This document shows, in pieces, positions 4,599 to 64,000 of a stretch of DNA of 64,000 bases. This DNA comes from Acidilutibacter cellobiosedens (GTDB taxonomy: Bacteria > Bacillota > Clostridia > Tissierellales > Acidilutibacteraceae). The notes below the pieces were generated by a model. It was not told the DNA's origin. It worked only from the letters and a program-made list of their open reading frames with translations, and searched no databases. Made by a program: the position numbers and the translations under genes. How positions within the stretch are numbered: the stretch's first letter is position 1; each line of letters begins with the position of its first letter. The stretch spans positions 2,780,673 to 2,844,672 of the forward strand of contig NZ_CP035282.1 in the NCBI RefSeq assembly GCF_004103715.1, in the 5' to 3' direction.

Positions 4599-5801
4599 TT
4601 AAGCATTGAATAATCCGATAACCCATTCAAAAATTTCTTGAGATGCCAAATCATCATTTGTTGATTCCAAATGACAGAATGGGCAGTCAAAGTGTCTTTC
4701 CTTTTCCGAAACAACTCCATCGATAAAACGGGAAGATACAAAAAAATTCAGCCATTTTTCATCAACCAACATGATGATGATATTTGCGTTTAAAAAACTT
4801 TCATAAAAGCATAACCATTCTTTTGTATTTTCTGCCGGCAATCTAAAACGGTTTTCTTCGAAACGGTTTTCCGAAATCATATCGCTGATACATACACAGT
4901 TGTACTCATTTTTTATGAATTTCCGCTGCAGCACCCTTGACAATTTTTCAATATTTTTTTTATTTAAAGGATCATATTCAACAGCTATTATCGGTATCTG
5001 CATTTCCTCTATATCCTTTGTTTCCGGTAAGGTTCTTGATAAAAAACAACCGTAACTGTCACTTATAACCTTTAATTTTTTTTTCTTTGCCAGGAGCTTT
5101 TTTATAAGCTTGATATCGGCAATTTTTTCTTCCCTCAAAATAATTTCTGCGATCTGTGCGGCAACAACCGGTGCGATAATACTGTTGGCCGATGACAAAT
5201 AATAGCCGAAATCCCGTTCCAGCTTTTTCAGCACATTTAATTCGGGAACATATTCCCGGACATCTATGCCGTCTGCCGGACTGATATAAAATGTTTCTTC
5301 CTCTGAAGCCGAATCAGCTGTCTTTACCCCTATCACGGAAGGCAAACATGCGGGATAAGTGACGATGCCGTCATTTGCCCCGGCGGCAACTATAATTGTA
5401 TTGTTCTTTTCGGCTTTTTTTGATACTTCAATTATCCTGTCCGCGGAAACGAACTGTTTCAAACCGATACTCAAACTAATCAAGTTCACTTTATTGTCAA
5501 TGCTCCATTGAATTGCTCCGCTCAGTTTCCGGAGATTATTCCGCTTCTCCATGTCCAAAACCGAGATACTTACAATTTGGACATCATTTAAAATTTTTTC
5601 TGTCTCCAGGCTCTCCAGTAAAATCAAGGTACATACCGTTCCGTGATTAATCATCTGCAGCGGAGTTGTATACTGGGCAACACAAGTACCCTTCCATGCC
5701 TGGAGACAAGTAATTTCATTTTTTTTATCTCTCATCCTATGTATCAGCCCCATATTTATTCCGTCATCTATAACCGCTATTTTCAGTTTGCCTTCTGCCA
5801 T
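4599..5801 (-). CDS. Subtilisin-like (S8) serine protease, cytoplasmic, probable leader peptidase
   Basis: The first ~220 of 400 residues form a subtilase fold with the catalytic triad Asp12 (AVIDDG), His53 (NHGTVCT) and Ser207 (ANSIIAP), and oxyanion Asn143 (AAGAND). The remaining ~180 residues are an unrecognised domain containing a CPFC pair. No signal peptide, propeptide or membrane segment is visible, so it should act inside the cell. It sits between permease B and the exporter, 7 nt after permease B ends. With no C39 domain on the exporter, cleavage of the peptide leader is the natural guess. The Ser motif deviates from the usual GTSMAAP, so activity is likely but not certain. Confidence 0.8.
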   Translation of the reverse strand: MAEGKLKIAVIDDGINMGLIHRMRDKKNEITCLQAWKGTCVAQYTTPLQMINHGTVCTLILLESLETEKILNDVQIVSISVLDMEKRNNLRKLSGAIQWSIDNKVNLISLSIGLKQFVSADRIIEVSKKAEKNNTIIVAAGANDGIVTYPACLPSVIGVKTADSASEEETFYISPADGIDVREYVPELNVLKKLERDFGYYLSSANSIIAPVVAAQIAEIILREEKIADIKLIKKLLAKKKKLKVISDSYGCFLSRTLPETKDIEEMQIPIIAVEYDPLNKKNIEKLSRVLQRKFIKNEYNCVCISDMISENRFEENRFRLPAENTKEWLCFYESFLNANIIIMLVDEKWLNFFVSSRFIDGVVSEKERHFDCPFCHLESTNDDLASQEIFEWVIGLFNA

Positions 5802-61395: not shown

Positions 61396-61441
61396 AACCC
61401 CGCAACAAATCAGAAATTATTCTGTATCTACTGCGAGGTTT
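61396..61441 (-). repeat. Hairpin copy 1 related to 61805-61852
   Basis: A CCCCGCA...TGCGAGG hairpin with GGGGTTTTT at its minus-strand foot. Its 46-nt sequence is clearly similar to the one at 61805-61852, in the same orientation. Confidence 0.6.
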
Positions 61442-61467
61442 CACAAAGTTCATTATTATAGAGTAAA

Positions 61468-61918
61468 TGTATATTTAAAATAAACTCCGCTCCAAACCGA
61501 AATCCCTCAAACCCTTATCCCTTCTCGCCTTATGCCCATTTTCCTAATTCTTTCCATATAATAAAGTCGGTTCAAAAATTCCATATTTTCATTCCATTTA
61601 ATAACATTTATTCCTTAATTCTTGTAGTAATTTTTAAAATAAAGTCGGTTCCAAATAGGGATAAGGTGAAAGGAAAAAGGTATAAGGTTGCATTTTCTAT
61701 TGTCTTATTTCAGTGTTATTTCAATCAACATATCGTTTTCAATTCCTTTAAAATCAATACCTTTAGCCTTATTACTTACCCCTTAACCCTTTCTTACAGA
61801 AAACAAACCCCGCAGCAAATGAAGATTTCTCCTGCATCTGCTACGGGATTTTGGAACGGACTTTATTTTTATGGAGCGAACTTTATTTTAATGGAGTCAA
61901 CTTTATTTGAATTATACA
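61468..61918. mobile_element. Gene-free ~450-bp element with Tn7-like ends
   Basis: Six copies of a ~20-bp motif (consensus AATAAAGTyssyTCCAwA) point inward. Three are spaced ~80 bp apart on the left (61477, 61560, 61636, plus strand). Three are contiguous at exact 20-bp steps on the right (61852, 61872, 61892, minus strand). The ends read TGTATATT and TGTATAAT, each 8-10 bp before the first motif. This asymmetric layout and the AATAAAGT core recall TnsB sites of Tn7. The interior has no convincing gene. No exact 5-bp target duplication is seen (AGTAA versus AGTTA). Confidence 0.6.
61805..61852 (-). repeat. Hairpin copy 2 at the inner edge of the right-end repeats
   Basis: CCCCGCAGCA...TGCTACGGG stem; on the minus strand it ends CGGGGTTTGTTTT, so it could stop transcription entering from the SIR2 gene. 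Confidence 0.6.
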
Positions 61919-62072
61919 TAGTTAAGGTCAAGAAGACTTGGGATAAGGAAATAAGCATTTTATATCCGTTATTCTATATAAACAACTGTAACTTGAAAGT
62001 CCACTATGCAAAATAAAGCCCTCATCAATTCTTCGTAGTAAATGTAAAGTTTCTTATCTGTTTAAGTAATAT

Positions 62073-64000
62073 TTATTTATTTTGTTTATACTCAATAAAT
62101 AGGTTTCCTGATTTACTTTTTATTACTGTGAAGTTCTTTTCTTTTTCATCTAACACTATATTTTTAGTCTCTATATAAGCGTCATCACAATGAATATGTG
62201 GGCGACCTAATGTTAATTCAGTTCCAAAGAGTTCTATAGTTTCTTCCTCTTCACCTTCTATATCAAATTCAAATGCATCGCTATTTTCTTTATTATATAA
62301 AGCAATTATCTTTTCATCTTCAACTGGCAATTCCTCAATATACAATTTACCATTGTTTTGAATGATATTACCTAGCCTATTAATTATATCGATATCATCA
62401 TATGATATTTTATCTGGCACGTTAAAATTAACATGAAAATATTTTTGTATTTTTATGAGGTTCGAGTAAGCAAATTCTTGCAGTTTAAACGATTCAATAA
62501 ATTCTTTCAAATTATCTTTTTCAATCGATATGTCAGGCAAATCAAAATGAATACTGTAATCATCTGCTCTATATAGTGATACTTTTTCTCCATTAAACCA
62601 CTTTAAAAGCAACTTTGAAACCTTACTTCCTTCATATATATCTGATGGTTTTAACCATTGAATATTAATTTTTTTATCTTCAATTATGCAATGATGCTCG
62701 TCTATACTTTTTAGTAAAAACTTGAATATTATTCTAAAACTTTTATGATTTATTTCAGTTTGTATTAAAAACTTAGAAACATATCTTTTAAATATGACAT
62801 TTTCAGGTTCATCTACGTCTTGAAAATATAGGTGTCCTACATACTCTTCCTCTGGATGAGGTATTAAATGTAAACTATTAGTTATCTGTAAACATTGTGG
62901 AACCGAATTTATGCTATAGCCATTAATTTTACTATCTATTTCTTTAATAAATTCACCAGGTATAGTAATAGGTTCAAAACTTTTACCATTCAAAAATTCA
63001 TATAATTTTTTCATTATATCAATATACTCTTCGTCTTTTTTATTACTTTCAAATCTAATGCTTAAGTTCATATTAACATTATCTGAATTACCATTTAATA
63101 AACCTATGGAAGATAAATATGGATACTGTCCGAAAATTTGGAAATCTAATTTTACTCCTTCTTTTTCAAAAACTTTTTTAACTTTTTGAAATTGTACTAA
63201 ACCTTTACTACAATCTTCAATTAATTTGTCTTTAATATCCTTTTCCAATTTAGGAATAATTTCTTCCGCAGACATCGGTATATAGGATATATTTTTTGTT
63301 GCTAAATAAGCCTGTTTATATTCAGGTAATTGTGGTATTGCTAAAAAACATTCATTACCAAATTGTCCCAACTTATCAATTATCTTATCAAAAATAAATT
63401 GGATATTAGGGTCTTCCAAAGAATATCCCACAAAAAAAATCGATTTCTTTGCAATAATAGATTTTATCTCTGTCCATAATGGCCTAAATATATCACTATC
63501 AAAAAACTTTAAATAATCCGATTTTGTTATTATGATTAAATCTGGATTAGTAAAATCAGAATGTATTTTAAATAACTTAACTTTATCAGAATTAATCGAT
63601 GAAAATGCTGTAGCAATAGACTCATCTCTAATAATTACCTCTATATCATTTCCATATGCTCTTTCAAATAAATCATCAAAATTTGTTGTAATAATTGTTT
63701 GTATTTGGGGTATGTTTTTTAATGAATTATGTACATATAAATCTGAAACATTAATGTCTACTTGCAAAGCATTTTTGATTATTGAAAATAACTCTGTTTT
63801 TTTATTATTACGCATTTTGACAAATTCTTCTGCTACTTCTGGTAAAGTGTTATAATGACTTAGTAGTTCCTTTTCACTTTGTGTCGCACTTGATTTAATT
63901 TTTTGTACTAATTCTGCTCCCATCGGCACTCCTGCGTATTTTGAGAATCCTGCTCCAACCCAAAGAACTACTTCATTATTTCTAATTTTATTTAATAGTT
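62073..64000 (-). CDS. SIR2-domain protein, probable anti-phage effector (5' end outside window)
   Basis: At least 642 residues; the frame stays open to the right edge. The N-terminal SIR2-like domain shows the NAD site VGAGFSKYAGVP (63915-63965 region, upstream of the first in-frame start), ITTNFDDLFERA, LFKIHSDFTNPD and FVGYSLEDPNIQFI. The remaining ~370 residues match nothing I recognise. SIR2 domains of this type (SIR2_2) serve in defence proteins that deplete NAD on infection. The usual HG pair reads HS here. No partner gene is visible downstream; any partner would be beyond the window. Confidence 0.8.
   Translation of the reverse strand, partial: LLNKIRNNEVVLWVGAGFSKYAGVPMGAELVQKIKSSATQSEKELLSHYNTLPEVAEEFVKMRNNKKTELFSIIKNALQVDINVSDLYVHNSLKNIPQIQTIITTNFDDLFERAYGNDIEVIIRDESIATAFSSINSDKVKLFKIHSDFTNPDLIIITKSDYLKFFDSDIFRPLWTEIKSIIAKKSIFFVGYSLEDPNIQFIFDKIIDKLGQFGNECFLAIPQLPEYKQAYLATKNISYIPMSAEEIIPKLEKDIKDKLIEDCSKGLVQFQKVKKVFEKEGVKLDFQIFGQYPYLSSIGLLNGNSDNVNMNLSIRFESNKKDEEYIDIMKKLYEFLNGKSFEPITIPGEFIKEIDSKINGYSINSVPQCLQITNSLHLIPHPEEEYVGHLYFQDVDEPENVIFKRYVSKFLIQTEINHKSFRIIFKFLLKSIDEHHCIIEDKKINIQWLKPSDIYEGSKVSKLLLKWFNGEKVSLYRADDYSIHFDLPDISIEKDNLKEFIESFKLQEFAYSNLIKIQKYFHVNFNVPDKISYDDIDIINRLGNIIQNNGKLYIEELPVEDEKIIALYNKENSDAFEFDIEGEEEETIELFGTELTLGRPHIHCDDAYIETKNIVLDEKEKNFTVIKSKSGNLFIEYKQNK

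Follow-up and report, generated by a model that had tools for sequence, protein, structure and literature searches.

What kind of element has the ends of a Tn7-like transposon and no gene between them, and does it move? We addressed this for a 451-bp element, A, at positions 61468-61918 (+ strand) of the window, as we call the whole 64-kb stretch of DNA analysed (C1:2780673-2844672 of a single-contig genome); its L end lies at the left and its R end at the right, facing glmS. From left to right, A consists of TGTATA, three L sites, a spacer, a hairpin, three R sites and TATACA. The left terminus TGTATA (61468-61473, +; TGTATATTTAAA opens 16 of 16 complete relatives) is followed on the same strand by L site 1 (AATAAACTCCGCTCCA, 61479-61494, one mismatch), a presumed TnsB site, L site 2 (AATAAAGTCGGTTCAA, 61560-61575, one mismatch) and L site 3 (AATAAAGTCGGTTCCA, 61638-61653, an exact match). 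The non-coding spacer (61654-61803, +) has a core, TTTAAAATCAATAC, that is kept in the aligned relatives, and is homologous in the C-type mini-element described below. On the − strand, which is the glmS-sense strand, come a hairpin with a U-rich tail, presumably an intrinsic terminator (approximately 61804-61851), and three exactly matching R sites, inner (AATAAAGTCCGTTCCA, 61852-61867), middle (AATAAAGTTCGCTCCA, 61872-61887) and outer (AATAAAGTTGACTCCA, 61892-61907); the right terminus TATACA occupies 61913-61918 (+).

The L sites are about 80 bp apart and the R sites follow one another in 20-bp steps. A preliminary description of this DNA had reported six inward-facing sites of this motif and spacing between TGTATA ends, and had likened the spaced L sites, packed R sites and TGT...ACA termini to those of Tn7, all of which was borne out. 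With up to one mismatch allowed, the motif occurs six times in the whole window, always inside A; 60 dinucleotide-shuffled windows contained 1.17 sites on average, four at most, and never more than two within 440 bp. The termini are short (TGTATA/TATACA) and the site arrays asymmetric, and simple terminal inverted repeats are absent. Among the ORFs of 61468-61918, none confined to A resembles a gene, in line with the earlier statement that no transposition gene lies inside; the longest ORF to overlap A (116 aa, GTG start, 61666-62016) extends beyond the element. Because the relatives of A differ in length, from 441 to 540 bp, a coding role for these mini-elements, or minis, is disfavoured.

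We searched one genome per species, in 84,980 species, for the exact 27-bp L end of A, and found it in 29 stretches, all from Clostridia and spread over many genera, including Lutispora, Thermotalea, Defluviitalea, Herbinix, Acetivibrio, Thermoclostridium and Thermoanaerobacterium; a class-wide search gave matches in 31 of 391 genomes. The possibility that the motif would be missing from Tn7-like elements of related genomes, which the preliminary description had named as the outcome that would count against it, is thereby removed. In nearly every copy with enough downstream DNA, the R end follows 441-540 bp from the L end with no gene between; the R-end pattern failed to close a few copies that lay close to a contig end or whose R termini were altered. 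Sixteen complete copies align end to end, with the same spacer and hairpin in different genera, and identities between genera are high (98.9% between Thermotalea and copy B of the present genome, 98.6% for Lutispora/Acetivibrio, 97.0% for Lutispora/Herbinix and 95.8% for Thermoclostridium/Clostridium sp. N3C). Distant blastn of plasmid and phage collections gave no match to the mini, and the exact L end was not found in viral contigs. TnsB is 88-98% identical to that encoded beside A in five named genomes with A-type minis, and about 97% identical in the genome G598; other mini-bearing genomes have a TnsB of only 57-58% identity or none, and some of the several without a close TnsB are incomplete. 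In G479, tnsB and tnsC are apparently split by frameshifts (L186 8864-12688), and minis are still present.

The machine that the preliminary description placed elsewhere lies in the same glmS island as A, so that its reading of A as a non-autonomous element moved by Tn7-like proteins held for the kind of machine and not for its location; it had also missed the relation to glmS, the hairpin (about 61804-61851) and the tns genes, which lie just outside the window. The search of the genome for tnsB that it proposed located the gene to the right of A, within tnsDCBA (window-equivalent about 64186-70724, −), which starts 2.3 kb away with tnsD. Pfam domains beside A are TnsA N and C, Mu-transpos_C, TniB/AAA, and TniQ with TnsD; none falls within A. 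Between A and tnsD lies a cargo gene with a SIR2_2 domain (62073-63998, −, its start beyond the window), for which ThsA is the best PADLOC hit. The search for the same motif array, likewise proposed, yielded copy B (C1:2868156-2868606), 26 kb from A and 98% identical to it, with the L part, spacer and hairpin identical and the differences confined to the R-site region. Far from the isolated oddity first suspected, A is one of two near-identical minis that bound a tns/cargo segment, and is the left mini of a composite unit, A - tns/cargo - B. A third, diverged mini, C, with the motif AAAAAAGTyrTGTCAA, starts at C1:2874276 and adjoins glmS, which is 32 kb from A. The order A - tns - B - cargo - C thus occupies the glmS site.

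Several further features of the island and its genome were recorded. Two genes upstream of tnsA (L014 11961-13630), one encoding 289 aa of unknown type and the other 267 aa with an M69-type PADLOC hit, are 89-98% conserved in several other genomes and may belong to the transposon core. The R-type sites upstream of B directly adjoin the end of an IS21-like istAB pair (L015 7369-9046). The cargo and mini C, 4.7 kb together, are 98.6% identical in G184, of another family of the order (L050 6413-11079 against L015), apparently by recent transfer. A second tnsABCD set, with a TnsB of 57% identity and minis of another motif type nearby, lies at C1:297824-304119 of G000 (L043, L044).

The tns/cargo segment, E, has edges of its own. 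It begins with TAGTTA directly after the TATACA of one mini and ends with CTAACTA directly before the TGTATA of the next; its left edge (TAGTTAAGGTCAAGAAGACTTGGG, 61919-62040, +) includes a conserved AATAAAGCCYTCATCA site at 62012, and its right edge has R-type sites of its own about 50 bp inside the junction. The inner junctions TATACA|TAGTTAG and CTAACTA|TGTATA recur across genera and the outer flanks vary; in other genomes TATACA|TAGTTAG adjoins tns genes or E edges. It should be borne in mind that the left-edge examples come partly from tns contigs, and that the right-edge examples were found through the L end of the mini and are biased accordingly. Many minis have two to five R-type sites in a row outside the L end, then about 50 bp of pyrimidine-rich DNA and CTAACTA|TGTATA (L015 9040-9155; L048 about 5410-5525, minus strand; L135, L148 and others). 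Where TAGTTAG and tnsD are separated by cargo, the cargo differs from host to host, with a SIR2/ThsA-like or an LmuB-like gene as examples, so that this is possibly a defence slot (L014 2745-4688, L136 172-3510, the start of L141, and L143).

Such an arrangement raises the alternative that A is no more than the left end region of a single large Tn7-like element, reaching to B or beyond, whose end structure is enlarged by the R array and hairpin inside it, and that the short form never moves as such. A mini R end followed by TAGTTA does precede the tns segment in the tns contigs whose left edge can be resolved (G000, Lutispora, Defluviitalea, T. saccharolyticum, G598 and G479), as this alternative would have it. 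However, minis also occur with no tns segment attached, they stand in tandem at glmS in Herbinix, and a solo mini in G451 has a target duplication of its own; we therefore regard this alternative as unlikely.

Evidence of movement comes from position and from target duplications, the latter read from the L and R flanks. Tn7 inserts just downstream of glmS with its R end towards the gene (PMC2918618), and Tn7 and related elements characteristically leave a 5-bp target duplication (PMC11406308). Eight genomes have a mini whose R end faces glmS, 24-26 nt past the stop codon of that gene. The solo G451 mini (540 bp) is flanked on both sides by a perfect 5-bp duplication, GCTGG, and lies inside an ORF: when the flanks are joined with a single GCTGG, a frame of 239 codons becomes open again, the product of which, judged by its sequence, is a putative IS256-type transposase. 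In the complete genome of G598, a composite unit of 57.65 kb (4844-62494), contained in one contig, has TTATC on both outer flanks, a mini at each end, and tnsDCBA and cargo between; the two minis, 57 kb apart, are each 97.8% identical to A, and the whole unit is nested inside the spacer of another, resident mini. The same resident mini contains a second, gene-free unit (62535-63875), in which 285 bp separate two minis and which has AATAC at either side. At least three tandem minis in Herbinix are separated by (A)CTAC, and ACTAC is also found after the glmS-proximal R end. No matching duplication was found around the lone glmS minis of Acetivibrio and a Peptococcaceae MAG, or around the nested minis of G532. 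TTTAT on both outer flanks in Defluviitalea was not counted, because the contigs are unjoined and the tns contig does not finish on the right with the E edge that would be expected.

The duplications in G598 imply that a composite has as its ends the outer L end of one mini and the outer R end of another, and that around the G451 copy implies that a single mini also moves alone. Comparison of genomes thus shows that the minis move alone and that two of them in direct orientation form the outer ends of a composite carrying the tnsABCD operon and cargo. The tandem and nested copies suggest that target immunity may be weak, or escaped. The preliminary description had called A a relic, which corresponds to a formerly full-size Tn7-like element, stripped of its genes by internal deletion and now immobile. 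L and R ends that lie close together with no gene between would look like this, and A itself has no matching target duplication. On the other hand, the same spacer and hairpin are found in many copies of different genera, near-identical copies (95-99%) cross genera, and both the solo copy and the composites are bounded by perfect 5-bp duplications. A dead relic is thus strongly disfavoured for the mini family, and for A itself we consider it very improbable.

The hairpin is at the same place in 24 of 24 R-end or relic copies, and is kept where the sequence is unrelated (C type and type 3). Its folding z, obtained with plain rather than dinucleotide shuffles, is about -6 to -8 in most copies, with weaker values for G206 and G032; double changes were seen in four pairs. 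A strong, conserved hairpin beside regularly spaced sites might instead mark a regulatory or structured-RNA locus, with repeats that bind a regulator. Yet an Rfam search of the locus returned no family, and sharply defined, conserved ends, an attTn7 position and copies in tandem or nested are features of a transposon, as are the target duplications, which already contradict this alternative; we give it almost no credence. The orientation of the hairpin is such that it would stop transcription coming from glmS. According to a reference cited in PMC2918618, the glmS terminator is where Tn7 inserts in E. coli, which makes it natural to suppose that the hairpin stands in for a glmS terminator displaced by insertion.

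The flanks of A record a less simple history. The left flank, GTAAA (61463-61467, +), recurs at nt 20-24 after the glmS stop codon, so that the left end of A marks the canonical attTn7 point; mini C and 69 extra bp intervene at the recurrence beside glmS. The 69 bp left of A that end in GTAAA (61399-61467, +), with a degenerate hairpin and an R-site relic, are identical to DNA 3' of glmS (L015 15759-15827). Neither A (GTAAA left, TAGTT right) nor the A-B unit (GTAAA left, TCAAC right) has a matching 5-bp duplication, and A, A-B and the whole island lack a clean one, with the sole exception of GTAAA at both outer positions. The island was likely rearranged after insertion, as reflected by the 69-bp duplication at both ends and the C-type mini beside glmS. 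DNA just 3' of glmS resembles a worn R end, with hairpin and R-site remnants, in L015, L149 and L152, as does the DNA left of a mini in L137 and that at window 61399-61467; from its sequence, it looks like an old transposon end turned glmS terminator.

We conclude that A is very probably a miniature, gene-free Tn7-like transposon mobilised by TnsABCD, and that such minis are also the complete ends of composite Tn7-like transposons. It is Tn7-like by its own ends and by the target and duplications of its relatives, a non-autonomous miniature by content, and a composite end module by arrangement. Mobilisation of the minis by TnsABCD is what we infer: the neighbouring TnsB would bind the L and R sites of A, TnsA and TnsB would cut at TGTATA/TATACA, TnsC with TnsD would deliver A to attTn7, about 25 nt past the glmS stop, and the hairpin just inside the R end would then replace the displaced terminator. 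Against this stand the missing duplication at A, the rearranged island, the mixing of A- and C-type ends and the several mini genomes with no close TnsB. Ends of the two types are sometimes mixed within one element, in mosaic minis (L145 7282-7716, the end of L143, and L089) that combine C-type L sites with A-type R sites, in T. saccharolyticum, or an A-type first L site with C-type sites, in G022. More tentatively, and with somewhat less than even confidence, we propose that there is a class of Tn7-like transposon whose ends are interchangeable and mobile by themselves: each end would be a full mini-Tn7 without genes, able to jump alone or, in pairs, to carry tns and cargo, and the divergence of its sites would let units stack at attTn7, in tandem and inside each other, in spite of target immunity.

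If this is true, Tn7-like transposons have natural non-autonomous miniatures, and glmS islands can be built and stacked by a route like that of IS composites, a possible explanation for the gathering of several cargo blocks at one site. Target immunity and the choice of ends would become testable with small natural parts, and the hairpin inside the R end suggests how insertion beside an essential gene can stay harmless.

With Tn7, the E. coli prototype, and other glmS-homing Tn7-like elements, the minis share a TnsABCD-type machine, spaced L and packed R sites, the 5-bp duplication and insertion immediately 3' of glmS, the R end facing the gene (PMC11406308, PMC2918618). They differ in that the mobile unit is gene-free, the composite has a complete mini at each end, the R end contains a presumed terminator hairpin, and copies stack at a single att site, in tandem and nested, despite the target immunity known for Tn7. 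Bacterial MITEs and TIMEs are likewise short, gene-free, multi-copy and mobilised in trans, and elements of the TIME type can form mosaic transposons (PMC4133298); they have simple terminal inverted repeats, whereas the minis have asymmetric multi-site arrays and a site-specific target. A review of prokaryotic MITEs mentions Tn7 for its target site only (PMC10969869). IS-flanked composite transposons also use two copies of a small element to mobilise the DNA between; here, in contrast, the flanking minis have no transposase, which is encoded in the carried segment. What PMC8649781 describes is composites of IS elements within Tn7-like transposons, not Tn7 minis as ends. In the open-licence literature on non-autonomous, MITE-like and tandem Tn7-like elements we found no description of natural gene-free Tn7-like elements, and in the open-licence literature no report of a composite with complete minis as its ends. 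Engineered mini-Tn7 vectors likewise consist of the Tn7 ends only, with the Tns proteins supplied in trans (PMC4321384); the minis described here share their design, and differ from them in being natural and widespread.
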